From Thelephora terrestris (lineage: Eukaryota; Basidiomycota; Agaricomycetes; Thelephorales; Thelephoraceae), in NCBI GenBank assembly GCA_015956445.1, contig WIUZ02000022.1, positions 310,001 through 374,000 of the forward strand: 64,000 nt of DNA, written 5' to 3'. Below the pieces are notes generated by a model. It had not been told where the DNA came from. It made no database searches and saw nothing but the letters and a program-made list of their open reading frames with translations. Within the stretch, counting starts at the first letter, position 1. Each line of letters starts with the position of its first letter. The position numbers and the translations under genes are program-made. Shown in pieces: positions 8,347 through 26,701 of the stretch.

Positions 8347-8571
8347 TTAATCAATATCTCTGCGGATCCTTTGTACCGTCTCCAAGGCTGACCTCACCAA
8401 CTCCTCGTTCGCCCAGTTCTGCTCCCTAATCTCGTTCGGATCTACATCGGACAAGTCATCGTAATTAGGAAGATCCTCCGTATCAGAATTTGGTTCTGAG
8501 TCAGGAACAAACTCGGTGTACGGATCAAAGTCCTGGACCGGCCATCGTCCCCTCGGCTGAGTAGTGTCCAT
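8347..8571 (-). CDS. Short acidic ORF abutting an LTR arm, unknown
   Basis: A 74-codon frame starts at ATG 8571, the base next to the LTR palindrome, and ends in TAA-type stop at 8347. It is rich in Asp, Glu and Pro (PDSEPNSDTEDLPNYDD) and ends in a charged helix, VRSALETVQRIRRDID. I do not recognise it. It could be a remnant of a retroelement leader ORF or of a host gene cut by the insertion. Confidence 0.28.
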   Translation of the reverse strand: MDTTQPRGRWPVQDFDPYTEFVPDSEPNSDTEDLPNYDDLSDVDPNEIREQNWANEELVRSALETVQRIRRDID

Positions 8572-10222
8572 TGTAGTGCCTCCAGTTCTGGGGATGTGGG
8601 ATTCTGAGGTTTGCTGTCCTCAGTCCTCAGTCCTCCTCTTCGCTTTTCCTCCCCTTTGCAACCTTTGCAACCTCCTTTGGAACATCCTCCTCTTCGGAAC
8701 TTCTTCTTCTTCGCTGGAGCTTCCTATTCACCAGAGCTTCCTCTTTGCAAACTTCCTCTTCGCCAGAGCTTCCTCTCCTTCGCCGGAGCTTCCTCTTCTC
8801 CAGAAGACTTTCCCCTTTCATGACGACTTTCCCCTTTTCTCCTCTTCCCCTATGGCTTCACCATTGCATCATAGGTCCCTATTTCACAGTTTCCCTCCTT
8901 TCTTCTCTGGATCCTTCTCAGAGCAGACCTTAGTATATATATCCTGTACTAGCTACTCTGGAGATCATTGCGCTCCATCCTATTGAAGTCCAGTCAGCCA
9001 TGTTCCCCTCCTCCTAGTCTGAAGCTTTGCTCTAGTCCCCTTGTCGTCCCCAGTGTCTTCTTGCTTTCCTCAGTGTCTTTCCCTAGTGTTCTCTGCTCCC
9101 CTCGTCAAATCTTCCCTTCGGAACCCCTTGGAACTCTTTCGGAACTCTCGCAATCTCTCTGCTTTTCTTGCTTTGTCTCTAGCTCTCTTCTGGTATCTCC
9201 ACCTTCACGCTTTCTTCACAACTGTTCCCCAGTCGCTGCTTGGAGTTCCTTGACACTGTACAACCTAGGACCCACCTTCACAGGAGCTCTCTGGGCCTTG
9301 ATCCTCTGCCACCATGGAGGTCCACCAAGAAGAATCCCTGTTCACCTGGAACCCACGCCAGGACTCGAACCCGGAACCTTCAGATTAGAAGTCTGATATC
9401 ATAACCATTACAGGGGTTCTTCTTGGTGGACCTCCGTGGTGGCAGAGGATCAAGGCCCAGAGAGTTCCTGTGAAGGTGGGTCCTAGGTTGTGCAGTGTCA
9501 AGGAACTCCAAGCAGCGGCTGGGGAACAGTTGCGAAGAAAGCGCGAAGGTGGAGATACCAGAAGAGAGCTAGAGACAAAGCAAGAAAAGCAGAGAGTTCC
9601 AAGGGGTTCCGAAGGGAAGATTTGACGAGGGGAGCAGAGAACACTAGGGAAAGACACTGAGGAAAGCAAGAAGACACTGGGGATGACGAGGGGACTAGAG
9701 CAAAGCTTCAGACTAGGAGGAGGGGAACATGGCTGACTGGACTTCAATAGGATGGAGCGCAATGATCTCCAGAGTAGCTAGTACAGGATATATACTAAGG
9801 TCTGCTCTGAGAAGGATCCAGAGAAGAAAGGAGGGAAACTGTGAAATAGGGACCTATGATGCAATGGTGAAGTCATAGGGGAAGAGGAGAAAAGGGGAAA
9901 GTCGTCATGAAAGGGGAAAGTCATCATAAAGGGGGAACTAAGAAAAGGGGAAAGTCTTCTGGAGAAGAGGAAGCTCCGGTGAAGAGGAAGTTCGCAAAGA
10001 GGAAGCTCTGGTGAATAGGAAGCTCTGGTGAAGGAGAAGAAGCTCTGGCGAAGGAGGGAAAGCTCCGGCGAAGAAGAGGAAGCTCCGGCGAAGAGGAGGA
10101 GGTTCCGAAGGTTCCGAAGGCAGTTGCGAAGGTTGTGAAGGGGAGGAAAAGCAAAGAGGAGGAATGAGGACTGAGGACAGCAAACCTCAGAATCCCACAT
10201 CCCCAGAACTGGAGGCACTACA
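8572..10222. mobile_element. Head-to-head LTR palindrome (fossil LTR retroelement)
   Basis: Bases 8572-9344 form an LTR-like unit: 5' TG, 3' CA, a CT-rich body and a TATATATAT box near 8934. The same unit lies inverted at about 9415-10222. The arms are about 770 and 805 bp and differ by scattered changes and small insertions, so the element is relatively young but not new. In the plus orientation the left LTR is followed by two bases and then TGGAACCCACGCCAGG, a primer-binding-site-like match to the 3' end of the tRNA-like sequence in the hinge. There is no coding interior. Because both strands give TG...CA ends, orientation rests on the primer site and TATA box. Confidence 0.72.
9347..9411 (-). 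other. tRNA-Arg(UCU)-derived sequence at the palindrome hinge
   Basis: On the minus strand the hinge reads as most of a tRNA. The anticodon arm is TCAGA-CTTCTAA-TCTGA with anticodon TCT at 9389-9387. A T-arm follows (CCGGG-TTCGAGT-CCTGG), then the acceptor strand CGTGGGT, one base, and CCA. Eukaryotic tRNA genes do not encode CCA, so the CCA suggests a copy of a mature tRNA. The 5' acceptor strand and D-stem are missing or replaced by LTR sequence, so this is unlikely to be a working tRNA gene. Confidence 0.55.
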
Positions 10223-10228
10223 TCGTCC

Positions 10229-10487
10229 AAGATGTAATCTAAATGCCCTCAAAAACATGAGATGTTTTCACAATGTGCCCAGTGGGCACATTCAGGAAAC
10301 ATTGCTTGGGAACATTTTGAGGAAATTTCAAATGGAGTTGGTGGGCGCAGTTGAATTACATGTCAAGGTAACATTTTAAATGTAATCAACCTGGAATCGG
10401 CAATTACAATCATTGAAAGTGCACATGAACTCACCATGTAATCAGGATGTAATCACCAATTCCAGGTGCCCCTGCCCCCAGTGAGTG
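10229..10487. mobile_element. Truncated palindromic CACTG element, right end
   Basis: It ends in CCAGGTGCCCCTGCCCCCAGTG at 10487, the reverse complement of the CACTGGGGGCA terminus of other elements here, and carries the internal words GCCCAGTGGGCAC and ATGTAATC. Its left end is missing where the LTR palindrome stops. The same sequence recurs at 20604-20902 and 22110-22291, defining a second subfamily. Confidence 0.55.
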
Positions 10488-12433
10488 TCCAGACGTGTGA
10501 GATAACAGAAATCCAAGAATGACGTGAGAGCCTTGATGATGTCGATGGGAACAAAGCCTTCCAGTGAGGTGACGAAAATGTTCATGAATGCCTTAGAGTC
10601 GTTCCCAGTCCACTGTTGGAAGTTCCGCCCTTGTTTGAACCTGCAAAGTCCAGGGAATAGAGGGACAAGAGCAATTCTGGAGAGGAGGTCAGGGTAAGTG
10701 AGAAGTTGATCAGGGTGAAAGCAAACCTCCGATTGACTTCATTGAGAATCTCTGACCCCCAAGACAGGCCGTACTCCAGCTTGAGGTATTCTTCACACTG
10801 GGGGCAAGGGGTCAAATACCCAGTGGGTACATGCTGAATACATTGTGATCACAGTCAAAAAGTGATCACAATGTGCCCAGTGGGGAAAATTTGAATACAT
10901 TCAAAATGTACCTGGCCATGTGAACCCAATGTGCCCACTGGGGACATTTTGATTGCGATCACAATGTACACATCAATGTGATCTCAATGTGCCTGCTGTG
11001 CACATTTTAATTTCTTTCACAATGTCCCCATCAATGCGTTCTCAATGTACCCAGCTCATTACATAATAGTTTCTTTCACAATGTTGTCCACAATGTGTTC
11101 AGCATGTGGCTGAGCCACTCATTCAAAATTCTTTCAAAGATTATCCAGTGATGTGTCCATAATGTCCCCAGGGGGTTGTTTTGAAGTAATCACAATGTAA
11201 TCACAATATTGTTCAATTTCATCATGAAATTTCAAAGAAATCACTATGTATATGGCTGTACACATTCTAGACACACCACTGGATACTTTGTGAAAGAATT
11301 TTGAATGAGTGGCTCAGCCACATGCTGGACACATTGTGGACAACATTGTGAAAGAAACTATTATGTAATGAGCTGGGTACATTGAGAACGCATTGATGGG
11401 GACATTGTGAAAGAAATTAAAATGTGCACAGCAGGCACATTGAGATCACATTGATGTGTACATTGTGATCGCAATCAAAATGTCCCCAGTGGGCACATTG
11501 GGTTCACATGGCCAGGTACATTTTGAATGTATTCAAATTTTCCCCACTGGGCACATTGTGATCACTTTTTGACTGTGATCACAATGTATTCAGCATGTAC
11601 CCACTGGGTATTTGACCCCTTGCCCCCAGTGTCAACCCATGTGACAAGGTGATCCTTGAATGTCCCTTTGATGGCCTGGTGGAGGAGGTCGGGAATGAGC
11701 AGTTCATATATATCTGCACGCGGGAACTGAGCGGTGAATGGCTCGAAGCAATGGTCAAGATAAGGGAGGTTCAGCAGCAGACCAGAACTCACCATGAAGT
11801 CTGGCACAATGCCATAGCCGTACCAGAGAGTATCTTTGTTCTGAGTATTGGAGAGCCTTAGGAGTTGCCTGAGGGTACGAAGCACAGCAGGCAACCCATC
11901 GAGGTCTGTGTGGTTAGCATCACACCTAAAGAAATATGTTTTCACTCAAGTGTAATGGGCAGTAAGGAGATACAGACGTTACGCACCATCCATACACGCA
12001 CCTGCAGCAAGTGATTGTTCAGGATAATCTGCAATGTGTGGGCCAATGCCGTAGATTGCACGGCGGAAATGGTAGTCAGCACAACGAACGATGTCCCACA
12101 TAGTCATGTAAGGCTTGGTGCTGTCATTCACCACAGCGAGACACCCGTGAAAGAGATGACGACAGAAGTCGTGGAAAATTTCGCTCTTTGCGTCATCATG
12201 AGTACCTGTTGGTCTCATTAGCTTGAGCGTACAATGATTAGGTTATACATCATTTACCTTTGGGAATTGGAAGGAAGCCGATTAGAACGAGGGCGGCCTT
12301 ATGCGCCCGTCGAAGGCAGTTATGAACGTTCCCAACAGATAGGTAAACGGGATGATAAGAGTGTTGACCGGTTGCGACGGAGACAGTCGTCTTGTCAGAC
12401 CCAAGAATGATTGGAACGAACATCGACCCATGA
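10488..12433 (-). mobile_element. Plavaka-type transposase, broken, N-terminal/core half
   Basis: Reading the minus strand from 12433 downward gives blocks of the Plavaka (CACTA-related) transposase of mushroom fungi. These are FVPIILGSDKTTVSVATGQ, HPVYLSVGNVHN, RRAHKAALVLIGFLPIPK; then HFRRAIYGIGPHIADYPEQ; then YGIVPDF, DIYELLIPDLLHQAIKG and TFKDHLVTWV. After an inserted element (10796-11631) it continues EEYLKLEYGLSWGSEIL, GRNFQQWTGNDSKAFM and VPIDIIKALTSFLDFCYL. Several frame changes and spacer stretches show it is a pseudogene. Upstream coding sequence is cut at 12433 by another palindromic element and downstream sequence at 10487 by a third. Family identity is strong by motif order. Confidence 0.82.
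10796..11631. mobile_element. Palindromic CACTG element, complete, TSD TCA
   Basis: This 836-bp element starts CACTGGGGGCAAGGGGTC and ends with its reverse complement. The two arms (about 400 bp each) are near-perfect inverted copies around a centre near 11215. The flanks carry the duplicated triplet TCA (10793-10795 and 11632-11634). Removing the element and one TCA restores the transposase frame WV-E-E-Y, which proves the insertion. It has no ORF of its own. CACTG termini plus 3-bp duplication fit the CACTA superfamily. Confidence 0.87.
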
Positions 12434-13004
12434 CACTGGGGGCAAGGGGTCACTTACCCAGCAATTACATTGTGATTACATTGTGATTTTTTAGACAATG
12501 TGTCCAGCCTGTGGCCAGGAGGTACATGCTGAGTTCTTTTACAAAGTATCCATCAATGTGACCACAATGTGGCCAGTGGGTCCACCTTGATCACTGTTAC
12601 AAAGTACCCATCAATTCGATCAAAATGTGCCCTGTGGGTCCATGCAGGATACATTGTAAAAGTATCCATCAAAGCGGCCACTGGGCACTTTGTGAAAGAA
12701 GCCCTTGGTTTCTTTCACAATTTTGTTCACAATGTATCCTACTGGGTGCCTGAGCCACTCATTGAGAGTTCTTTCAAAAAGTGCCCAGCAATGCAACCAC
12801 AATGTCCCCAGGGGGTTCTTCTTAATGTTTTCACAATGAACTCTCAATGTGGTTGGATTTCACAACAAACTCTCAAAGAAACCATTGAGTATCTGGTTGA
12901 AAACTTTGTGGACACATTGCTGGATACTTTATGAAAGAACTCTCAATGAGTGGCTCAGGCACCCAGTAGGATACATTGTGAACAAAATTGTGAAAGAAAC
13001 CAAG
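12434..13004. mobile_element. Palindromic CACTG element, right arm truncated
   Basis: The left end CACTGGGGGCAAGGGGTC at 12434 follows the triplet TGA. The left arm runs to about 12850 and the inverted right arm from about 12865 to 13004, where it stops abruptly against Helitron-derived sequence. The element sits in the same Plavaka transposase as the 10796 element. Confidence 0.68.
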
Positions 13005-13935
13005 GGCTGGGTCTGGCTTGTTCTCATGAATAGCAAGGTTCTGCAACTCAGTAGAGATGGCACTAATGAGGAATGACTTCCCAGTTCCAGCAGTTCCATA
13101 AATATTGATCCGAAGGGGCTCTGGGCTTTCATTTGCATCTTGCTCTGCTCCAAGTAGTGCTTTGTACCATGCAGGAACCTGCAGAAACACCTCTCTCTGT
13201 TCACCCTGGAGGAGTCGCCAATCGACTCCAGGTAGTTGATTGGCTGGAGCCACTCCCAATCTCTTCTGGGTTTCTATCCAGTCTGCAGCCATTGTGATTT
13301 CTTCTTCAGTCCAATCTGACTGGGTCCAAGGGTGCTGCTCATCAATATCACGTAGACCCAACCGACTAATGTTTCCACCCACACGTGCATTTGGGGCACG
13401 CCCTGCTTCAGCCATCCATGCATCTTGTAAAAGTTCATCATCATCACTTCCCCCCAGAGATTCAGTATCAGAGTCTGGCTCCTCCTCTACTGCTTCTGGG
13501 AGTGGATCAGGGTTGTAATGGATGGGGTGGCAGTTTAGTTGGCAGTGTTGGTAGAAGGAGGTCCAGCTTTGGATGTTGTCAGTGAGAAGGTTGTCAAAGG
13601 AACAATGTGGGTGGTGGAGGAGGACTTTGGCACAACAAAACTTCTCATAGCTTTCAGCATGAGCAGGGTCACCAACAAATCATGGCCAGACATCAACTAC
13701 ATATGGTTTTGCCCCATGAGCACCACACCTTTTGTATTGGCCTGAATTAAAATCATACCAATGGCAGAATTCATAGAGGGAAAGATCGGATCCTCCAGCT
13801 CATCAGGACTTCCAATGTAGCGTTGGAGGAAAGAAATAGTGCCTGGGCATGGAACAAATGCAACCTCATCGGAGGTACCCTCAGAAACTTTGAGTGAGCG
13901 ATATTGCCTGGAAGAGACCCGTGAAGAAGGATGTA
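13005..13935 (-). mobile_element. Helitron Rep/helicase remnant (Pif1-like domain)
   Basis: The minus strand encodes WP-x-FVGDPAHAESYEKFCCAKVLLHHPHCSFDNLL, the conserved pre-helicase block of Helitron proteins (here with an in-frame stop after WP). An acidic linker and HPWTQSDWTEEEITMAADW follow. The start of the Pif1 helicase comes next: EQREVFLQVPAWYKALL and the Walker A motif GTAGTGKSFLISAI, cut off soon after. A frameshift precedes the WP block. The N-terminal Rep domain and the rest of the helicase are absent, and no CTRR/hairpin end was identified. Confidence 0.72.
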
Positions 13936-15126
13936 TAAGTCCCTTTCAGATAGCTGGTGGTTGTAATTTTTTCAGATTTCTTCGAAAAATTCCTGGATTT
14001 TTGTGCCCAGATTTCCCCAGATTTTTGTATGTTGCCAGATATTTTGAGGCCAACAGGTGTTGCAGTGAGCGCATGCTTAGCCGACTCGCGGAAATTAGCT
14101 AAGCAAGGTCTATTACCAAAAAAGGAACTACAGTTGCTGACATAAGCTAGGCTTTTTGGATGCCCCAAGCAATCTAGAGCCTCACAAGCTCAGCTAATGA
14201 GAGCAAGCATCCTACAAACTGCTGCCCCTCAGGAAGTCCTTCCGATGAGAAAAGCCTCTCCCAAATCCCCGCCCCTCAAGAAGTCTTTCAAATGAGGACA
14301 AGGCTCTCCCATACCCCTGCCCCTCAGGAACTTGTTCCTATGAGGGCAAATTTCTCTGACAGCGTAAGAGACATTTTACCCATGCAATTCAGCTTGTTTC
14401 GCTTGGTTGGGGCAGTATTGAGTGTGTGAAGGCGACATTTGTTGTCAGTCCTGTATTGAATGGGGTCCACCGGTCCTTCGAGAGGGTGGCCATCTGCAAA
14501 CATGGCACACTTTTGAGAGGGCAGGTTCTGCAATGGGTGGTCATAGCCCACTCTAATAAAGAGACCTGACAAGAGGAAGCCCACCTGATGGAGAGCAAGT
14601 ATGAGTGGAGGCAAGCTAGGTGGGGGCAATGAAAAATGCTTGGTCATATTTATAGCGTTGACACCCTCACTCAGGCTGTGGCGCCACAATCACAGTGGAG
14701 TTTCTTTTGCACAAAGCCCCCTGATTAACAGCCTCTGGCTCACCTCAATGGAAAGTTGGCTGTGCCTCACCAGCAATGGTACACTAAAATAAGGGTGACT
14801 CCTTTTGACAAATTTGAGTGTACCCTGTGAGGAGAACAACAGCTACTTAGTGACCGTGACAATTAGACTTCTTTCATGAAGGGAACAGGGTGAATGGGAT
14901 GCTGACATACTAAGTAAAACCCTGTCACAGGGGCAGATCCAAGAATTTGGAGAGAAAGAGGGGGATTGTAGAGGAATGCTTGGCGGCAGAAAGGAGGCTT
15001 TGAGAGAGATGGTGTTGAGAAGGTTAACTGACACAGGTGAAACTACTACAGACATACCGAGATGAACAGTTCCTGTAGACTTCATCCAACCCAGCATCTA
15101 ATCAGGCTGAAACACTGTACTCAGCG
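13936..15126. other. Unassigned repeat-island sequence
   Basis: No gene can be supported. Minus-strand open frames at 14324-14689 overlap in two frames without a recognisable domain. The stretch includes the tandem repeat at 14220-14364 and ends at the left terminus of the 15127 palindrome. Confidence 0.35.
14220..14364. repeat. Three-copy tandem repeat, unit about 48 bp
   Basis: Each unit has the form TGCCCCTCAGGAAGT, a variable ten bases, ATGAG and a CTCTCCCA-type tail; copies start near 14222, 14268 and 14317. Confidence 0.6.
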
Positions 15127-15602
15127 CACTGGTGGCAGACCCCTACTTACTCAGCAGGCAAATTGAGGGTTTTTTGAGTGTTTTTCAACAATTTACTCAG
15201 ATTTTAACCAGTGGGTTAATTGTGAGAAAATTCACAACTTATCCACCACATTTCCCTCAATTTGATCAGTAGGTAAGTTCCGAAATTGTTCCCAACAACC
15301 TCATCAGTTTGCCCATGAGATACTTCTTTGAAAAAACTCTAAGGGTTCTTTCACAAATTGCACCAAATGTGTCCATCACATGATCTGAGCCACTCACCCA
15401 GAGTTCTTTCCCAAATTACCAATCTGTCCTCAACATGCTCAAACATATACACAGTGGATTTGTGGTGGAGTGAGCTGTGACAGCCAGTTATGTGATCTGA
15501 TCATGTGATTGTGGGAATTTCTGTAGTGGTATATAGTGGTGTTGATCCCATCAATATAACTTGGCTTTACTCTCCCAATGTGTCCTGCAACAGTTTGTTG
15601 GG

Positions 15603-16751
15603 ATGGCTCTCTTCTTTCGACCACCACTTCCCCCTCCGGCGCCTAATTCGTTTGTCCCACCAGATGTAGACACCATCAACTACTTCGAACGAACCGTTAT
15701 CAGACCTCTCCAAATAAACCTCAGTGATATAGAGCTAGTTTTTCAACGTGCAGATGAGGAAGATGACCCGATCCAAAAACAATCCAAACGACACTACTAC
15801 ATCTCCCGCATCCTTGAAATTCTCAATGACGACTCTTCCCAATCCCTTTGGCCCATCCTTTACCCCTCCTCCAGATTTGAAGACAATCTCCTCAGACAAC
15901 TCCAATTTATTTGAACAGGAGTTGACAACCTCAACACCAACAACAACCCTACCACACCACAACCTTCCTCCCAACCTGCTGCAGATGTCATTCCGACGTT
16001 GGTGGCAATGGAGGCGAACATTACAAATCTACAAGTGGAGACTCTAGCCTCCCTTAAAAGCTATGCTGACGCTGCTAAAGTGTCTGCTCCCATAACCCCC
16101 CCTCCCCCACCCCCTCCATCAAAGCCCCCACAGCCAAAACCTCCCCTGAAAAGGAACCTCCTTCCACAAGCAGTGATTCAAACTAAAGGCAAAACAGATC
16201 CCAAGAGCCTCCCCTCCTTTGTTGACCTGGTCACCACCCTTAACAAATCCCTCCACGAACATCCCAAACACTTGCACGTCCGTGTGGTCGGCGTGAAGTG
16301 GACCGCAGCATCAAACCTAGTGGTCCGCGCCCAGGCACCCTCTCCCTCTGCCCTCGTTAACGCCCTCAAGGCTGTTCAGGCATCAATTACGTCCAATCTA
16401 CTGATTATCAAGGACATCATCCCCAACACAAGATGGTCTCGTGTGACCCTGTCACATGTGTTCACCGGCAAGGAACCCGATTCACCCGCTTACTCCCCAG
16501 AAGCCCTCCACGAGGAACTATCCACGCATAACCCCAACTATACGTCGCTCATCATCAGACAGTACCCCTCATGGATAAGAAACCCCAAGAACTTCACAAA
16601 CGGCCAAACATCCTCAATCTCCTTTGCCTTTGAAGACCCAGATGGGACATGCGCCCAACGTCTCATCGGGACCTCTCTCACCGCTTTTGGCAACCTCAGG
16701 TGCACTCTCAAAGCCTGGGTCTCACCAAAGAAAACAGCGCAGAAGCCATAG
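15603..16751 (+). pseudogene. LINE ORF1-like (gag-like) protein, one in-frame stop
   Basis: One frame runs 383 codons from ATG 15603 to a stop at 16751, interrupted by a single TGA at 15912-15914. The protein has a Pro-rich start (PPLPPPAPNSF), a helical segment, LVAMEANITNLQVETLASLK (coiled-coil-like), a poly-Pro linker, and a C-terminal domain. That domain contains HVRVVGVKWTAASNLVVRA, TRWSRVTLSHVFTGK, LIIRQYPSWIRNPKNF and SISFAFEDPDG. This last block resembles ORF1 nucleic-acid-binding domains of fungal non-LTR elements (Tad1-like), from memory. It has no zinc knuckle and no reverse transcriptase. Near-intactness implies a recent copy. Confidence 0.62.
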
Positions 16752-17091
16752 CAAGCCTTTGCAGCAGATGTTTTAAACGGGTAATCTGCACGTCAAGTCT
16801 CTATATACATTTGGTATCCTCCCGCACTTTCCCCACGTAGATTAGTGTCCTTGTGTTACACTGATATTTCCCCCGTTGGTCCAGGACTCCCACGCCTTGG
16901 TACCATAACTACCCTGTGCGTCAGGTATACCTTGTATTCCTGTTTCCCTTTCCCCCCGCTGTTATGTTCGATCATGTTCGTGATTCACCAAAGATGCAAG
17001 TAGACCATACGATAGCAAAGTGTAACATAGGTAGTACTACCTCAGCACTATAAACTGGCATCAAAAAAAAAAAAAAAAAAAAAAAAAAAAA
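15603..17091 (+). mobile_element. LINE-like retroposed copy: ORF1, 3'UTR and poly-A tail
   Basis: A 29-A run (17063-17091) ends the copy. The 14-bp word ACAGTTTGTTGGGA occurs at 15590-15603 and again at 17091-17104, a clear target-site duplication of target-primed reverse transcription. Between them lie only a gag-like ORF1 and about 310 bp of 3' UTR. The copy begins essentially at the ORF1 start codon and has no reverse transcriptase, so it is a 5'-truncated or ORF1-only (HAL1-like) derivative, or a retroposed mRNA. Confidence 0.75.
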
Positions 17092-17718
17092 CAGTTTGTT
17101 GGGAGTTTGTCATAAAACTGAGCAAATCAGAGTTTTTTTTGATCACATCAAAGAGAACCTGGTGGGTATGTCACTGAGTATATTGTGAGCAGGTTTTGAA
17201 TGAACATGTGGTGGGCACATTTGGTGCAATCTGTGAAAGAAAATTTAGAGTTTACTCAAAGGAGTACCTTATGGGCAAACTAATGAGTTTGTTGAGAAAA
17301 ATTTCAAAACTTACCCACCAATCAAATTGAGGGAAAAGTGGTGGATGAGTTTTGAATTTGCTCACAATTAACCCACTGGGTAAAATCTGGGTAAATTGTT
17401 GAAAAACTCTCAAAAAACCCTCAATCTGCCTGCTGGGTAAGTAGGGGTCTGCCCCCAGTGAGAGGTCTGAGCTAAAGGTTGAGATGGAATAAAGTTATGA
17501 GCACTGATGGAATAGAAAATGGTCCAGAGAGCAGGGTGACCAGGGTGGAGGTTGCCTAGAGGCAGTCTCGAGGCTGGGAAGGGTCCAGAACACAATGGAG
17601 TCGAGCAACCAATAGGAAGGAATCAGAGAATGGGAGATTCGACATTGTGACATCTCCTTGGGACTTTAAAAACGAACCGTCCTTGGTTGCCAACTTGATA
17701 ACCTTTTCTTCCCTCTCC

Positions 17719-18838
17719 ATGACCTGGTTCCCGTCTGATGCTAAGGGGAATCCTCTCCCTCCGTTCAGTCCTCTAGACACAATTGATCAGAAGGGAGGTT
17801 TGTTCCCGTCCATCGAGAACGATTCGCCATGGACCTTCGAGGAGGTGAATGCCACGTATCCATCGACCACGGGGATCTGGGAGTCCGTTCGTGAAGTGTG
17901 GAGGCTGAGCACGTTCGAGGAGCTCAGTACCGGGGATAGAACGTGGACTGCTCTCATGAAGGCGTGGATGGTGAGTTTTCTTGGGGATTCCTTTGCAAAA
18001 GAGCTTCCTACTAACGAAGAAACCTAGGTGAGGCACTTCGAAGTGTGCCGGGAAGCTGAGGTGCAGCCGTATGGCCCAGTTGTGGAATACCTGCGACATG
18101 TGGTCCAGCAGAACCTCATCAGTGGGGAGGGGCTTCTGTCGTTGGGGGTGAAGATGCCGAAGACTCCGAAGACTGGGAGACCTACGCTGAGAGCAAAGCT
18201 TCCATACGTTCTCGTTCCTCCTACTCTGGTGCAGCATATCCCGAAGAGGAAGGAGGTGACTCCCAATTCGCCGACCACCACTACACAGGGCGAGGAAACG
18301 GAGGCCATGGATGAGGAGTGGAAGGTGACTCAGGGCAGAGGAAGCCTTTTCCAAGGGGAGCAACGTGGAGGTGCAGGAAACCGAGCTGGGTGCCAGTCGG
18401 AGGGGGCTAGAATCCCTTCAGATGTTCGATGACATCGTCAACAATTTGGAGCTCCCAAGGATGATGATCCAGGAATGGTACACGGATTTCATAGGTGCTC
18501 GGCTCGCCGAAGATTCTCAGAGGATGAGGCTAGATTCACAAAAAGACGCCTGGGAGGACATTGGCCAAAAGTTCCAGGCTCGCTTGCTCGGGAACAGCGC
18601 CATGGTAGTTGATAGTGCACCAGTCACGGGGCTGTTGAAACCTCGAGTCCTCAGTCCTCAGGTGGAGGAGAGCATGGTCGAGGACCCAGAGAAGATCGTC
18701 GAGGATCCAGGTACTCCAGTGCAATCTGAGGCTCTTTCATCCTCTGAGTCCGAAGATGAGTTCACGATGAAGAAGGAGGGGAAGAAGAGAGCGGTTCCGA
18801 AGGAGGAGAAGAAAGCGGAGGAGGCTGAGGGGGAGTGA
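17719..18838 (+). pseudogene. Unidentified protein gene, one intron, probable frameshift
   Basis: Exon 1 is open from about 17560; the first in-frame ATG is 17719. It encodes NATYPSTTGIWESVREVWRL and FEELSTGDRTWTALMKAWM, then a well-formed 57-bp intron (17971-18027) with a CTACTAAC branch site. Exon 2 gives VRHFEVCREAEVQPYGPVVEYLRHVVQQNL and a basic/Pro-rich stretch. Near 18322-18365 the frame must change by one base to continue with SLQMFDDIVNNLELPRMMIQEWYTDF and an acidic, Lys/Glu-rich tail ending at 18838. No intron fits there, so I infer a frameshift. I do not recognise the family. The 5' end lies against a palindromic element and may be damaged. Confidence 0.45.
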
Positions 18839-19690
18839 AGAACCGTCTGGCTGGAGACCCTCAGTAACTCTTCCACTGGAGCGAGGCAACTGGCAGCCCT
18901 TGCTGGAATATCTCACACAGCAGACGGCTGGAGGGCAGCAAATATCCCTCACCCTTCAAACACCCCAAGGGCCAATTTGCAAAGCTTTTTGCAAGAGATA
19001 CATGCGCTTGTGAAAGTTCTCAGGGTATCTGATGTCTGGGAGGGAATGTGAGCTTCATTTGCGCTGATAGAAAATCACGAGCCTCATCACAAAATACTGT
19101 TCAAACAGGCCTAGTTTTAGTTCCACTCCCAGCATTGAAACCGTTGCTCCATTATAAATTACCACCTCTTCCTCCCATCACCCCCAAGCACTTGGAATAG
19201 AGTGCTTGACCAATATTTATGTAATCCGGATGAGGACGATTGATCATAATAGAAGTCTCTTGTCTTATATCGGATCTATTACGTACTAGTAAAGTTCCTA
19301 TATCCGAACTCCAATACCTGAGCACACATTCCATTCGCAAGCGCTGAAATCTTTTAACTCTGCTCTCCAAAACCCTCACTGTTCTCTTTCCTGTCCTCTA
19401 CCATCTCTCTTTTCTGCCCTCGGAATCTGAAGAATGCTGAGGCTGACCTTTGATACACTGCTGCATCAACCAAGCACCTTGGAGATTGAGATCCAGGGAA
19501 AAATCGGACATGCTTTGAGGATCATACGTGGATGTCAAGGAGATCAGATCTGGGCAAGGACAATCCAAACACTGGTAAGTCAGATATGCCAAAAGCGACA
19601 CAACACAAACCCGATTTGGAGCCACTCACATCTTTCCCAAATACGCACTTTTGTAAGTTTGCAGGAGTAGACAACTTGTCTGGGCTGTGA
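18839..19690. other. Unassigned stretch
   Basis: No supportable gene. A 78-codon plus-strand frame at 19434-19670 has no recognisable features. Sequence is unremarkable and AT-leaning compared with host genes. Confidence 0.3.
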
Positions 19691-20603
19691 CACTGGGGGA
19701 AAGAGGGTACTTACCCAGTGGGTACATTGTGGGTTTTGAAACCATTTGTGCAGTTGTTACCCATCAGGTACTTTTTGAAAGATACCCATCAATTCACCCA
19801 CATTTTAGCCACTGGGTACATGGTGGGTACTTGATCCATGCTTTCATGAGTTCTGTACATGTCCTATCCTCTTACAACTCAGAAATTCATGCAAAGCCAG
19901 AGAACGACATGGTCCTTCAGGATGTGATTGGCAGCACAATGTCCAATGATCTTTGACCTTGGCCTCCCTTCAACATATTCCTGAATAGCAACCAATGGAC
20001 AGGGATGTGATCCAACCAGAATGAAGTGATGTTGACAAGTATATTTGTGCAACTCTCCGTGAAATTGGTTTGCAGCTCCTTCCATATGAAGGGCTATAAT
20101 TGCTCCACAACCGAGTGGAATGTTACCCACCAGGTACATGTTGGGTATTTTTTGAAAGATATCCATTGATTTGCCCACATTTTACCCACTGGATATATGG
20201 TGGGTACTTTTTGAGTGAAACACCTGGGTTCTTTCACAATTTACTTTCCAATGTGCCCATCACATACCTGAGCCACCCATTGAGAGTTCTTTGAGAGTTT
20301 TTGATGAAACTGAGCCACACTGTGAGTTCTTTGTGGGTTCTTTGAAAAAAACCCACTGGGTACATTGTGATCAGATTGGTGGGTACTTTATGAAGGAACT
20401 GAATGGGTAGCTCAGGTTTGTGATTGGCACATTGAAAAGTAAATTGTGAAAGAACCCAGGTGTTTCACTCAAAAAGTACCCACCATATATCCAGTGGGTG
20501 AAATGCGGGCAAATCAATGGATATCTTTCAAAAAATACCCAACGTGTACTTGGTGGGTAACAGCTGGGCAAATGGTTTTAAAACTCACAATGTACCCACT
20601 GGG
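19691..20603. mobile_element. Composite palindromic CACTG element with internal foreign segment
   Basis: The left terminus CACTGGGGGAAAG at 19691 follows TGA, and its arm reaches about 19855. A second copy of the same arm restarts near 20110, runs to a centre near 20325 and returns as the inverted arm to 20603, where the outermost bases are missing. Between the two left-arm copies (19857-20100) is a minus-strand open segment reading GELHKYTCQHHFILVGSHPCPLVAIQEYVEGRPRSK, apparently from another transposon that I cannot name. The internal words are shared with the 24004 element. Confidence 0.6.
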
Positions 20604-20902
20604 TAAGTGTCAAGGCAACATTTGAAATGTAATCAACCTGGAATTGGCAATTACAATTATTGGGAAGTGCACATGAACTCTCCAAGTAATCAAGACATAA
20701 TAACCGATTCCAGGTGCCCTTGCTCCTAGTGAATATACCCACTGGGCACATTCAGGAAACATTGCTTGGGAAAAATTTGAGGAAATTTCAAATGGAGTTG
20801 GTGACATCAGTTGAATTAAATGTCAAGGTAACATTTGAGACGTAATCAACGTAATCAAGATGGAATCATCAGTTCCAGATGCCCCTGCTCCCAGTGAGAG
20901 GC
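20604..20902. mobile_element. Two tandem right-end fragments of the second CACTG subfamily
   Basis: The first fragment ends at 20733 (GGTGCCCTTGCTCCTAGTG), the second at 20902 (GATGCCCCTGCTCCCAGTG). Both align with 10260-10487, sharing ACATTCAGGAAACATTGCTT and CAAATGGAGTTGGTG. Left ends are absent. Confidence 0.55.
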
Positions 20903-21134
20903 ATTTCATCCGTGTCATTGCTGCAAATGCACCACAGTCTTTCATCATTGCTCTCTGAGGCCTCACGGACCTCTGCTACCTCGCCCAGTTGTGCCAACTT
21001 GATGATGATCAACTTACTCAAATAACCTCCTCCCTCCAACTTTTTTGTACTTACAAGCAATCCATCTTGGATGCTCACGCTTTTGTGGGGAAGGGAAACA
21101 AGCTGCTGGACCACTTCCAAATCCCCAAACTTGA

Positions 21135-22291
21135 CACTGGGGGCAAGAGCACCTGGAATCAACGATTACATCTTGATTACATGACACTGGGGACAAACCC
21201 CTACTTACTGATCAGGTACTTTTTGAATATATTGCGGCTCCATGTCCAATGCACTAACACTTTGCTGGGCAAGAACAAGTTGAGTTCTTTCAGAATGTAC
21301 TAAACACTGTGACTACTACTTCCCAGCTCAGTACATTGTGTAAACATTCAAAAAGTACCAAATTGTGTGACCACAATGTCCCTGATCAGTAATTGTTCAG
21401 TACTTTTTGATTGTGTCAAAGAAAGTGATCAACAAGTACCTGCACTGCACATTGTGGTTTCAATGAAGATTTACTGGGTCATGTGACTACAAGGTACCAA
21501 ACTGGTGAATGCTGAGTACTTCTAGAATGTCCTGAGCCCATGTTTTCAAATTTTACCTGAGTGGCTCAAAGAAAATGTGATGACACAGTACTGAGCCTGG
21601 GTATATCCTGAGCACTTTTTGAAAGGATTCAGTATATTTTAGTTTCTTTCAAAAAGTGCTCAGGATATACCCAGGCTCAGTACTGTGTCATCACATTTTC
21701 TTTGAGCCACTCAGGTAAAATTTGAAAACATGGGCTCAGGACATTCTAGAAGTACTCAGCATTCACCAGTTTGGTACCTTGTAGTCACATGACCCAGTAA
21801 ATCTTCATTGAAACCACAATGTGCAGTGCAGGTACTTGTTGATCACTTTCTTTGACACAATCAAAAAGTACTGAACAATTACTGATCAGGGACATTGTGG
21901 TCACACAATTTGGTACTTTTTGAATGTTTACACAATGTACTGAGCTGGGAAGTAGTAGTCACAGTGTTTAGTACATTCTGAAAGAACTCAACTTGTTCTT
22001 GCCCAGCAAAGTGTTAGTGCATTGGACATGGAACCACAATGTATTCAAAAAGTACCTGGTGACTAAGTGGGGGTTTGTCCCCAGTGTCATGTAATCAAGA
22101 TGTAATCGCCGATTCCAGGTTGATTACATTTCAAATGTTACCTTGGCATGTAATCCAACCAATGTCCATCAATTCCATTTGGAATGTTCTCAACAAATTT
22201 TTCTGTAATGTTTTTGACATGTCAGCAAAAATGGTATTGCAATGCAATCAACATGTCTGACCACCAATTCCAGGTGCCCTTGCCCCCAGTG
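21135..22291. mobile_element. Palindromic CACTG element (second subfamily), TSD TGA, host of a nested palindrome
   Basis: It begins CACTGGGGGCAAGAGCACC at 21135 and ends GGTGCCCTTGCCCCCAGTG at 22291, flanked on both sides by TGA (21132-21134, 22292-22294). Excision with one TGA rejoins PKL-E-L in the surrounding transposase. A second palindrome (21185-22086) sits inside it. The two sequences touching the inner element are themselves inverted copies, the left ending TTGATTACATGA and the right starting TCATGTAATCAA. Confidence 0.77.
21185..22086. mobile_element. Nested near-perfect palindromic CACTG element
   Basis: A 902-bp element with termini CACTGGGGACAAACCCC. Arms of about 440 bp pair almost base for base around a centre near 21638; the left-arm words CTTTGCTGGGCAAGAACAAG and TGAGTACTTCTAGAATGTCC recur inverted on the right. 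No coding capacity. Flanking triplets are TGA on the left and TCA on the right. Confidence 0.82.
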
Positions 22292-22890
22292 TGAGCTGTA
22301 ATGTGCCATTGTTCCTAGTGACCATGCAATGGACTGCTGATACCACAGAGCATGCACACATCACAGAGATCAGAGTTCCTGGGTGGTCTGGCAACAACCA
22401 ATCATACAACCCACAAATCTGCATGTGGCTCAATTGCTCTGAGAAACACAGAAATTTCAACCTTGTACTTTCCATTCATGAGCTTCAACTCCACTCACAC
22501 CACACCAACCCACCAGAGCAGCAGGACAACAATCCAAGTGGCTCAAATGCTGACGCTGATGATGCCAAAGAAGATGACCAAGGCGTGACTCATTCAGATC
22601 TGTTGTCGTGCTGTTGAATTGGCTATTCTCCAATTCTTCCTATTGGCTCCTCGAACCCATTTAGTTCTGGCAGCTTCCCAGCCTCGTGACTGCCTCAAGG
22701 CGATCCTTGTTCGCCTCATCTGAACATCTTATTGTCTACGGTAAGCTGCTACTATCTGGGTGGACTCGGAACACGGCCAGAATAGCAGGAGTGAAGGTGA
22801 GGGGTCACTGGTTGTGCAGAGGTCGGGAAGGGGAGAGAAGCTGGATAGAGGAGAGGGAACCATGGTAGGTCAGGAAGTCATTGGGACAGG

Positions 22891-23213
22891 CACTGGGGGC
22901 AAGGGCCCAAATACCCACTGGGCACATTGTGATTACATTGTGAACACATTTTGAATGTTGTCGATTTTACAATGTGAATTGAATGTATTCAAAATATGCC
23001 TAAGACATGTGTTTTGGTGTATTATGGTCACATGACTGGGTACATTGTAAATGTGATCAGTATTTGCCCAGTGGTAATATTAAATTCACATTTTTGGGCA
23101 CATTTTGAACGTACCTGATTTTTACCCACTGGGCACATTGGGATCACTTGTTGACTGTGACCACAATGTAATCACAATGTACCTGGTGGGTATATAAGCT
23201 CTTGCCCCCAATG
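22891..23213. mobile_element. Short palindromic CACTG element, TSD AGG
   Basis: 323 bp, from CACTGGGGGCAAGGGCCC to CTCTTGCCCCCAATG, with AGG on both sides (22888-22890, 23214-23216). Arms are shorter and more diverged than in the other members; internal words TACCCACTGGGCACATTG are inverted near the right end. Confidence 0.75.
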
Positions 23214-23627
23214 AGGGGAGAGAACTCCGTACTAGTGAACTCCTTGCTAGATGATGGCGGTGAGCTAGGGGACAAGTGGACTAGTGGGCTATGGGGCTAG
23301 AGGGCTATTGAGATTGATGTCAGAGCGAAGAGCGAGGGGTTGGCGATGATCAGGTTGTTCAGGCAGAAGGGAAAAGAGGTGTGAAGAGGCCCAGGGGGTT
23401 TCTTTTTCATTCAGCTAGCTAGTACAGAGTATTTATGGGTAACAATAGCGCGATCTATTCAAAAGAGATGGGCAAAGTCACAAACAAATGGAGAAACAGT
23501 GGGAAAATAAAAACAAGTATATAGAAGGAGATAAACGAGAGTCTGACGCGAGGTAGGGGAACAGATGGGGCATTGGGAAGTTGGAACAATGTTGTGATGA
23601 GTCTTACTGAGAGGAAGGAGCAAGCGT
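23214..23627. other. Non-coding spacer inside the Plavaka remnant
   Basis: No ORF of interest. Purine-rich, with a TATTTATGGG word at 23429 that could be a weak TATA-like site; nothing else noted. Confidence 0.3.
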
Positions 23628-24003
23628 GTGAAACAGAGCCAAAAGGGGAAGTCTATGAACCCAGCCCTTACTCACTTGTACACTCTGTCTGAGGTCTCCA
23701 ACTACCCAGAGTGTTCAACTAGTTCACCGTCTCAACCAAATCTGTTTGCTCATGCTGTGTGGCTATCTGCAAATGTCACTCCGTTGATGCCACTCCCTCT
23801 CCACACCATGTACACTGACACGATGGCATTCCAACTCAACTATCATCTCAGTCTCAAGCCTATCACTGTTGAAGAGGCTACTATTGAATTCAAGCTTCCT
23901 GACCTCTGTCCCACCCTTGCCAACTACATCCATCATTTGTGAATCCTCCAGTCTCCCATAGCCAAGATTGAACAGCAACAATCAGCACCCCCAATGCTGC
24001 ATT

Positions 24004-24679
24004 CACTGGGGGCAAGAAGGTACTTACCCAGTGGGTACATTGTGAGTTTTGAAACCATTCGCCCAGTTGTTACCCACCAGGTACTTTTTGGGTACTTTTT
24101 GAAAGATACTCATCAATTCGCCCGCATTTTACCCACTGGGTGCATGGTGGGTACTTCTCAAGCAAAAGACCTGGTTTCTTTCACAATTTACTTTCCAAAG
24201 TGCCCATCACAAACCTGAGCCACTCGTTGGGAGTTTTTTCACAAAATACCCACCAATCTGATCACAATGTACTCAACCAGATACTCAATGGGCTCTTTGA
24301 GAGTTTGTGGTGAAACTGAGCCAGAGTGTGAGTTCTTTGTGAGTTCTTTGAAAAAAACCCACTGGGTACATTGTGATCAGATTGGTGGGTACTTTATGAA
24401 AGAACTCTCAACAAGTGGCTCAGGTTTGTGATGGGCACTTTGGAAAGTAAATTGGGAAAGAAACCAGGTCTTTCGCTTGAGAAGTACCCACTGGGTTCCT
24501 GAGTGGGTACTTTCACAAAGTACCCACCATGCACCCAGTGGGTAAAATGCGGGCGAATTGATGGGTATCTTTCAAAAAGTACCCAGAAAGTACCTGGTGG
24601 GTAACAACCGGGCGAATGGTTTCAAAACTCACAATGAACTCACAATGTACCCACTAGTAAGTACCCCTTGCCCCCAGTG
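24004..24679. mobile_element. Palindromic CACTG element, complete, TSD ATT
   Basis: 676 bp, starting CACTGGGGGCAAGAAGGTAC and ending GTACCCCTTGCCCCCAGTG, flanked by ATT on both sides (24001-24003, 24680-24682). Arms of about 320 bp are closely matched around a centre near 24320. It belongs to the same subfamily as the 19691 composite. Confidence 0.87.
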
Positions 24680-25825
24680 ATTACCGTTCACCCACCTTCA
24701 GGCGTGATACTCAGTCTGGATGCAGATGCGTACAAGTGATGTGGAGGGGTTTACTGATCTGCAACAGGTCAGCGCCATGCCAGCAACCAAAGGCTGGCTG
24801 TTTGGGCAGTACGAAACTGTCCTCCTTTCAAATGGAATGGCCTCAGGGCCAGGGCTAGGGGATACTTTTTTTTTTCTTTCCTTCATTCGATGCTGACAGA
24901 TTTCAGGCTATGAAGTTGCGCAGATCCAAATGATCTTCCACCCTGTCGTCACACCGTTGAATCAGCTATTCCCCGATTCTTCCCATTGGCTGCTCAAACC
25001 TATTAAGTTCCGGCAGCTTCCTGGCCTCATGACTGCCTCAAGGCGATCCTCGTTCCCCTCATTGGAACATCTTATTGTCTTACGAATGCCCTTCCCTGCT
25101 TTTCATCACCTTACCGGGAACCCCGTTTCAAATCCCTGCGTTCTAGCCTCCATCTTCCTGCTTCTTGACTTACCAGGACTTTGATATCCCTGATGCCTCC
25201 TTCCCCAAGCCTCTTGTCACTGTTTCAACTCTCATTCTAGTCTCTCATCACCAGTCCCCATTGCCATCTTGTCTTCCCGCTGCCAATCCCCAGTTCTCTT
25301 GTCGTCCTGTGTCCAACTCTTCATCTCACACCTTTCTTATTGATCATTCCGTTCCATTCTCCGCATCATTCTGTTCTCTGAGCACTTGCCTCCGCTACTC
25401 TTGCCTTCATCTTCCTCTTTCAAGTCCATTTCCCCTGTGTTTCCCCTGTATGATGCGGCTCTCCCTTACATCAGCAAAATGGCCTTGAAATTATTTTCCC
25501 ACCAGCCAAATAGTTGTGGGTCCCCAATTGTAAATGTTGTGTCAACATATATAAAATTATGACCTACATTATATAATGAGGTTATGTTGTCATTGTTTAC
25601 CAGATAAGTGCAAATAATCACGAAATAAGGTGCCTGCCACCTTTTCTGATGCTACTGCTGTTGTCACCCTTCATCACCTTCTTCTTAGTTACTCAGCCTT
25701 TGTTGTTGTTTCTCCTCTATAGTCACCCCTTTCACTCATCTCCCCTCAGTTTCACTTTTCTGTTCCCACTTCCTCTCTCAACTATCCTTGACATCGCTTA
25801 CTTAGGAGATTTTAGGATTTCCTTT
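24680..25825. other. Unassigned stretch with a dispersed repeat and AT-rich segment
   Basis: Bases about 24955-25080 repeat 22612-22735 on the same strand with about 85% visual identity (shared word TGACTGCCTCAAGGCGATCC). Bases 25500-25630 are AT-rich with several TATATA words. The rest is CT-rich with no recognisable gene. Confidence 0.45.
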
Positions 25826-26701
25826 CAGTGGGGGCAAGGGGTTGTGTTCCAGTCCAGAACATCACAAGTTCATTGCAAGGAAATGGATGATGTACCTGGC
25901 AAAAACCCACCCAGTACATTGCAAACACATTCTGAATTTTCCAAGCTGATTTCCTTGCAGAATTCTGGGACAGAAAATGGTCAGTACATTCACAGTGTTC
26001 CAGTGATGTTCCCATTAGATAATCCATGGGTACGTTCAGAATTTTCCCAAAGAAAGTAACCTCGATGTCGCCAGTCGGCGCATTTACAATGTTCCTGGTC
26101 AGAAAAATTCAAAATGCACCCAAATGGTGTATTTGCAGTGTTCTGGGGTGGTACCTCCAGAATGTACTGGTGCTGTCGACTGTGATGTACTGAGTTTGGC
26201 AAAGGTCAGGAACACTGCAGGAACACTGCAAGGAAACTGGAAAAACTGGGAATATCACAAGTTCATTCAAAATATTCCCAGTTTTTCCAGTTTCCTCGCA
26301 GTGTTCCTGCAGTGTTCCTGACCTTTGCCAAACTCAGTACATCACAGTCGACAGCACCAGTACATTCTGGAGGTACCACCCCAGAACACTGCAAATACAC
26401 CATTTGGGTGCATTTTGAATTTTTCTGACCAGGAACATTGTAAATGCGCCGACTGGCGACATCGAGGTTACTTTCTTTGGGAAAATTCTGAACGTACCCA
26501 TGGATTATCTAATGGGAACATCACTGGAACACTGTGAATGTACTGACCATTTTCTGTCCCAGAATTCTGCAAGGAAATCAGCTTGGAAAATTCAGAATGT
26601 GTTTGCAATGTACTGGGTGGGTTTTTGCCAGGTACATCATCCATTTCCTTGCAATGAACTTGTGATGTTCTGGACTGGAACACAACCCCTTGTCTCCAGT
26701 G
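25826..26701. mobile_element. Near-perfect palindromic element, TSD TTT
   Basis: 876 bp. The left end is CAGTGGGGGCAAGGGGTTGTG; the right end read inward is CACTGGAGACAAGGGGTTGTG. TTT flanks both sides (25823-25825, 26702-26704). The arms are about 430 bp and nearly identical over long stretches, with a short loop near 26255-26272. Translations of opposite strands are identical for 70 residues, so the arms have barely diverged. No coding function is inferred. Its arms share no long words with the other CACTG elements apart from the termini. Confidence 0.9.

Follow-up and report, generated by a model that had tools for sequence, protein, structure and literature searches.

A cluster of palindromic elements with CACTG ends in Thelephora terrestris, with arms homogenised within elements

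Results

The elements and their termini

The DNA analysed here is a single window of 64,000 nucleotides (nt) from the basidiomycete Thelephora terrestris, which contains a cluster of short elements (E0 to E8) with CACTG ends, several of them palindromic, lying on and around the relic of a Plavaka transposase gene. Within four of the elements (E1, E2, E4, and E7) the two arms have been homogenised, and we consider it probable, at roughly two chances in three, that these are non-autonomous EnSpm/CACTA-type elements composed of facing end regions, whose arms were made alike by gene conversion or template switching. The original prediction had described about ten elements with shared termini. Seven pieces with both ends were found (E1, E3, E5out, E5in, E6, E7, and E8), while E2, E4, and E0 are each short of one end.

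The first palindrome, E1 (10796..11631), has arms of 370 bp. E2 (12434..13008) belongs to the same palindrome family and retains its left CACTGGGGG end, but has lost the outer part of the right arm and the right end. E7 (24004..24679) is palindromic with asymmetric indels, and its relative E4 (19691..20609) has a partly duplicated left arm (19758-19840 and 20121-20213) and no right terminus. E6 (22891..23213) is a short relative of E1 with arms of 58 bp and is not fully palindromic. E8 (25826..26701), of a separate subfamily, has arms of 430 bp with 4 mismatches. The palindrome E5in (21185..22086), with arms of 441 bp and 7 mismatches, is nested in E5out (21135..22291), an asymmetric element of the TGTAATC subfamily. 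To this subfamily also belong E0 (10229..10483), a right-end fragment whose left end is gone and whose start coordinate is that of the original prediction, and the right-end fragments at 20610..20896, with ends at 20731 and 20896. Finally, E3 (15127..17460) is a palindrome of a more diverged type, with 259-bp arms around a central poly(A)-tailed insert.

Allowing two mismatches at most, we found 25 matches to CACTGGGGGCAAG in the window, where 1.93 were expected and none of 100 shuffles gave more than 8. The segment 10471-26701 holds 21 of the 25 matches, and 20 of these are at element ends or inside elements; the match at 13447 is in no element, and two are internal to E7. Five of the seven two-ended pieces have CACTG..CAGTG at both ends, and in the other cases, E6 (right, CATTG) and E8 (left, CAGTG), one letter is altered in one terminus. 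Exact 3-bp direct duplications were also present at five of the seven: TCA at E1, TGA at E5out, AGG at E6, ATT at E7, and TTT at E8 (P ~4e-8, using the measured chance of 0.018 per pair). The TTT of E8, in a T-rich flank, is the weakest of them. All five had been predicted, and all proved exact at their coordinates. No 3-bp duplication is present at E3 or E5in; the flanks of E3 are GCG and AGA (with the start at 15127), and three positions of its left end deviate from the consensus. The elements in the window are short and without a transposase of their own, and they have terminal inverted repeats (TIRs), target-site duplications, and several copies, as expected for miniature inverted-repeat transposable elements (MITEs) and other non-autonomous elements. 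The expectation that they are mobile elements of the CACTA type was supported by the termini and the 3-bp duplications.

How palindromic the elements are differs widely. Among the 10 pieces measured, with E4 counted once, self-complementarity reached at least 90% in three: E1 (94.0%), E5in (97.3%), and E8 (97.7%). It was 84.4% in E5out, which includes E5in, 82.0% in E7, 71.8% in E6, 66.2% in E4 (66.4% when extended to 20731 and 70.1% to 20896), 62.6% in E2, 61.8% in E3, and 56.9% in E0. The description of the elements as almost wholly two long inverted arms is therefore accurate for E1, E5in, and E8, but not for the other seven pieces; E7 and E4 are imperfect palindromes. The predicted minimum free energies of the hairpins were -713 (E1), -831 (E5in), and -853 (E8) kcal/mol.

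Similarity of the arms within elements

The aligned arms were 98.1% identical within E1, 93.4% within E2, 91.9% within E7, 94.5% within E4, and 88.0% within E3, whereas the identity of arms between E1, E2, E4, and E7 was 51-86% (47-86% with E3 included), with E7 versus E4 at the top. At two-state sites, all 10 pairs of E1, E2, E3, E4, and E7 displayed within-element patterns exclusively (19, 80, 65, 104, 22, 15, 42, 18, 72, and 50 sites per pair) and not one site of either cross type; these pairs are not independent of one another, and the secure ones are E1/E2, E2/E7, and E7/E4 (19, 22, and 18 sites). The left arm of E4 was represented by its inner copy both in the site patterns and in the trees. 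When the concatenated left arm was compared with E7, 10 within-element sites and no cross sites were found. The duplicated arm gives a further view of E4: over 75 columns, 7 sites unite its inner left copy with its right arm to the exclusion of the other left copy and the two arms of E7, and each alternative grouping has 1 site. Two trees that group arms across elements were rejected (difference in log-likelihood, 382; approximately unbiased test, p < 1e-36). These observations show that the arms were homogenised within E1, E2, E4, and E7, which had formed no part of the original prediction.

The mismatches that remain between arms are unevenly placed in some of the palindromes. All 7 of E1 are in the innermost 67 of 370 bp, all 7 of E5in are in the outermost 54 of 441 bp, and 3 of the 4 in E8 are in the outermost 9 of 430 bp. 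The longest clean runs of E1, E5in, and E8 (303, 387, and 395 bp) were matched by 2, 0, and 26 of 100000 permutations, respectively, and that of E2 (77 of 106 bp) by 9 of 20000, so that clustering was seen in four of seven palindromes. It is cleanest in E5in, whose mismatches have a matching terminus on one side and a clean interior on the other, and it is there that patchy transfer from arm to arm is most cleanly supported.

Probable common origin of E1, E2, E4, and E7

The loops of E1, E2, E7, and E4 (96, 97, 87, and 114 nt, respectively) are homologous, since all six pairs beat every one of 1000 dinucleotide shuffles each. Those of E7 and E4 are inverted relative to those of E1 and E2, and the four loop pairs tested in the opposite orientation gave no match above the shuffles. 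E1, E2, and E7 pass from arm to loop at positions that agree to within ~6 bp, and the inner limit of E4 differs. A box, TGAGCCACTC, occurs exactly eight times in the window, always in E1, E2, E3, E5in, or E7. Any relation of E3 and E5in to E1, E2, E4, and E7 is weak at most, and a relation of E8 to them was undetectable. Because of the shared loop and near-identical axis, one ancestral palindrome suffices for E1, E2, E4, and E7, and for these four there is no need to suppose, as had been predicted, that the palindromic form arose more than once; E3, E5in, and E8 may have separate origins.

It could also be proposed that each palindrome was made anew in one step from a single element end that was broken or capped by a hairpin and was copied by folding back, with the arms being young copies that would require no repeated homogenisation. 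Arms far more alike within than between elements would be expected from such an event, as would the short loops of E8 (16 nt) and E5in (20 nt), and the mismatches of E1 and E2 adjoin the loop, as though copying had proceeded outward from an old, imperfect stem that served as primer. The same axis would, however, have been needed each time, as the loop and near-identical arm limits are common to E1, E2, and E7 (the loop also to E4). Moreover, a single complete copying should leave evenly spread mismatches, and E5in has them in the outer 54 bp only. We therefore regard this origin as rather unlikely.

The nested palindrome E5in

The TGA duplication predicted at 21135-22291 is exact, but belongs to the outer, asymmetric E5out; the flanks of the nested palindrome, TGA at left and TCA at right, are reverse complements of each other. 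E5out measures 255 bp without E5in, and its relatives are E0 and the fragments at 20610-20896. The inverted symmetry of E5in does not end with the element, but runs for 22 identical bp past its ends, or 34 bp with two mismatches, and the relatives E0 and E4b differ in sequence at the side that matches this 22-bp symmetric flank. This is suggestive of one flank having been copied onto the other after insertion. A tract running past the end of E5in would explain why an inverted TGA/TCA replaced a direct duplication.

Inverted chimeras can be by-products of DNA amplification, and palindromes might also be produced by faulty assembly. An artefact of either kind is extremely improbable in this case. 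In E1 and E8 the symmetry stops no more than a few bp from the CACTG ends, and in E5in it stops 34 bp beyond them; E1, E6, E7, and E8 have direct duplications at their flanks; and diverged relatives with the same loop exist, all of which speaks against such an artefact, even though strand-displacement amplification is reported to yield chimeric by-products (PMC9484634).

The Plavaka relic and the superfamily of the elements

The Plavaka transposase (PF18759) is present as three open pieces on the minus strand, at 12253-12432, 11982-12242, and 11634-11945 (E-values of 5.7e-27, 2.3e-16, and 5.9e-19; span 11634..12432). The third piece, which reaches the final position of the Pfam model, stops where E1 begins. 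If E1 is excised together with one TCA, the same frame stays open for 70 codons across the site (...HLVTWV/EEYLKL...). These codons, in the open frame at 10585-10794 and in phase with 11634-11945, have no Pfam match of their own, and are presumably the next part of the Plavaka gene, whose probable continuation beyond E1 is at 10484..10794 (minus strand). The gene is bordered by E2 on one side and by E0 on the other. Because E1 interrupts its reading frame, the gene looks like a target of insertion rather than the mobiliser.

The original prediction had named a Plavaka transposase as the natural mobiliser, a proposal that was not supported. In a recent survey of fungal elements (Kojima 2025; PMC12730594), PlavakaA is reported to have TGT..ACA termini with 2-bp duplications, PlavakaB CATCA..TGATG termini with 2-3 bp duplications, and EnSpm elements of rusts CAC..GTG termini with 3-bp duplications. 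Likewise, CNIRT6, a mobile element of Cryptococcus neoformans classed as CACTA, has 24-bp TIRs that start with CACTG, and 3-bp duplications (PMC12810828). The elements described here have CAC..GTG termini of the CACTG type and neither of the two Plavaka termini, and among the Plavaka groups their 3-bp duplications are compatible with PlavakaB alone. Since CACTG ends and 3-bp duplications match both rust EnSpm and CNIRT6, the elements point to EnSpm/CACTA. Mobilisation by Plavaka would gain from the presence of a Plavaka transposase gene in the same cluster, from the placing of Plavaka in the same broad CMCT clade, and from the ability of PlavakaB to make 3-bp duplications (PMC12730594); nevertheless, the reported termini differ from CACTG ends, and the gene at hand has E1 inserted in it and E2 and E0 at its borders, which makes this mobiliser improbable. 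A 20-base pattern composed of the outer end and part of the subterminal region had no match in viral contigs or in bacterial and archaeal genomes, which are collections without fungi.

The E1 group, E6, and E5in have arms in which short motifs are abundant in both orientations. The motif ACATTGTG was enriched in six of nine arms or pieces (its count being reached by 0 or 1 of 200 shuffles), and CCCA(C/G)TGGG in five of the nine (0 of 200 shuffles); neither was enriched in E3 or E8. In plants, the protein TnpA binds the subterminal repeats of CACTA elements (PMC8195511). The motif-rich arms are reminiscent of such repeats and might possibly hold binding sites of a transposase or a partner protein. 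End regions of this kind would explain how elements reduced to their ends could be mobile.

Other features of the locus

The poly(A)-tailed insert within E3 (15604..17089, plus strand, ~1.5 kb) has its own duplication, AACAGTTTGTTGGGA, at 15589 and 17090. This duplication is of 13-15 bp, since its first two A may be part of the poly(A). The long reading frame of the insert contains a single internal stop, and its open 278-aa part gave no Pfam match; as judged by eye, the insert is retroelement-like.

Immediately before the cluster, at 8556-10225, is a further palindrome of ~1.67 kb, without CACTG ends, with five arm segments that are 83-99% complementary. One of the four arm segments tested showed clustered mismatches (423 of 20000 permutations). 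Near its centre there is an Rfam tRNA match (9350-9417, minus strand, 42.5 bits against a gathering score of 29), although ARAGORN with the bacterial code reported no tRNA. As a guess, it may consist of inverted retroelement ends around a copied tRNA. Adjoining the Plavaka relic, a minus-strand reading frame at 12873-13679 has sub-threshold matches to AAA, NPHP3, and PIF1, with E2 at the junction. Outside the cluster, apart from two sub-threshold cases, the Pfam matches were to ordinary cell proteins, among them 2-oxoglutarate dehydrogenase, a cohesion factor, and a ribosome biogenesis factor of the Bms1 type.

Some elements also gave sub-threshold covariance-model matches to microRNA (miRNA) precursors. 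The match of E7 to MIR7533 was rejected, as it scored 110.9 bits against a gathering score of 230, was mostly of pairing and not of shared letters, and was found on both strands; the other miRNA covariance-model matches, at the centres of E5in, E7, and E8, were all under their gathering scores. The ratio of observed to expected CpG was 0.03-0.30 in the elements (10796-26701), against 0.94 in the gene-rich part at 30-60 kb. Decay driven by methylation would account for this, but the ratio is also low (0.17-0.44) in four stretches close to the elements, with the Plavaka gene at 0.80, and we draw no conclusion from it.

Discussion

Taken at the probability given above, our interpretation is of elements without a coding interior of their own, each formed by two facing end regions rich in short repeats. 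A CACTA-type transposase, presumably encoded elsewhere, would cut and paste them, leaving the 3-bp duplications. One ancestral palindrome would have given rise to at least E1, E2, E4, and E7, and within each of these, transfer of sequence from arm to arm would keep or make the arms alike. The likely mechanism would be template switching on the folded hairpin, gene conversion between arms after a break, or both. In E5in, as its flanks suggest, the transfer tract may have extended beyond the end of the element into the flanking DNA. Precedents exist for these steps: in yeast, polymerase template switching in a folded inverted repeat makes the arms alike (PMC8604942; see also PMC8794818), long inverted repeats are said to homogenise often (PMC8604942), and inverted repeats provoke breaks (PMC3855049; PMC7999016). 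A bolder version, in which the palindrome is the heritable form of a self-renewing lineage, with each arm used to rewrite the other by way of a folded intermediate, perhaps at each transposition cycle, seems unlikely to us. If it were true, both ends would always have the same transposase-binding sites, and a mutation in one arm would be either erased or fixed in both.

Several points weigh against the interpretation as non-autonomous EnSpm/CACTA-type elements with homogenised arms. No CACTA transposase was found by Pfam in any of the 47 stop-to-stop frames of at least 150 aa in the window, nor in the Plavaka pieces, and we infer the mobilising transposase from the element ends alone. The motifs ACATTGTG and CCCA(C/G)TGGG were picked after word counts in these very sequences. 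With respect to the arms, the alignments are weak for E3 versus the others (47-55% identity) and for E1 versus E7 and E4 (51-59%), and in the free tree of ten arms those of E7 are paraphyletic to E4 (support 63), with a support of 55 for the pairing of the E2 arms. Among the 8 arm segments of the seven palindromes, mismatches showed no significant clustering in E3, E7 (two segments), or E4. The repeat finder determined where the arms of E1 and E2 end on the loop side, and most of the mismatches in these two elements are in the last 30 bp before the loop; their clustering persists after trimming of the inner 20 bp (73 and 163 of 50000 permutations), but vanishes at 30 bp. In E8 the clustering comes from 4 mismatches, and the terminus holds 3 of these. 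The symmetric 22 bp outside E5in could have been inherited as a variant of E5out, and neither E5in nor E8 has a close relative in the window.

Elements in which very long inverted repeats form much of the length are known as Foldback-type elements, such as Galileo and Tetris of Drosophila and Tm1 of nematodes. They belong to other superfamilies than the elements described here; in D. willistoni, Galileo makes duplications of 7-8 bp, and the term gene conversion is absent from the main text of the paper describing it. The closest likeness in termini is to CNIRT6 and fungal EnSpm/CACTA, which share CACTG or CAC..GTG TIRs, 3-bp duplications, and basidiomycete hosts (PMC12810828; PMC12730594). CNIRT6, however, is ~7.5 kb long and has a transposase gene and short TIRs, whereas the present elements are 0.3-0.9 kb (E3, with its insert, 2.3 kb) and have no coding sequence of their own, and three are near-wholly palindromic. 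Plavaka (PF18759), although of the same broad CMCT clade, differs in its reported termini and has duplications of 2 or 2-3 bp (PMC12730594). A presumed transposon of Agaricus, compared by description only, is also palindromic and present in many copies; the transposon that hosts it has 9-bp duplications, and CACTG ends are not mentioned for it. Apart from this palindrome, no description of palindromic CACTA elements in fungi was found, in a search outside which most subscription papers fell.

Homogenisation of inverted repeats is already known in general, and template switching likewise uses one arm as template for the other (PMC8604942; PMC8794818). In the yeast cases, however, the arms are of 7-16 bp (PMC8604942), in contrast to the clean runs of 303-395 bp observed here, so that long-tract conversion may be needed. 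A long palindrome with near-perfect symmetry and a loop of 16-20 nt should be fragile (PMC3855049; PMC7999016). Such palindromes are nevertheless present in the genome of T. terrestris and have been corrected toward symmetry, and the rewriting of one arm from the other may explain how such mirror sequences remain nearly perfect. The likely mobiliser is also shifted from Plavaka to an EnSpm/CACTA element. If homogenisation should prove to be genome-wide, near-identical arms would not be a sign of young insertion, and the family would be a natural record of the tract lengths and polarity of inverted-repeat conversion.

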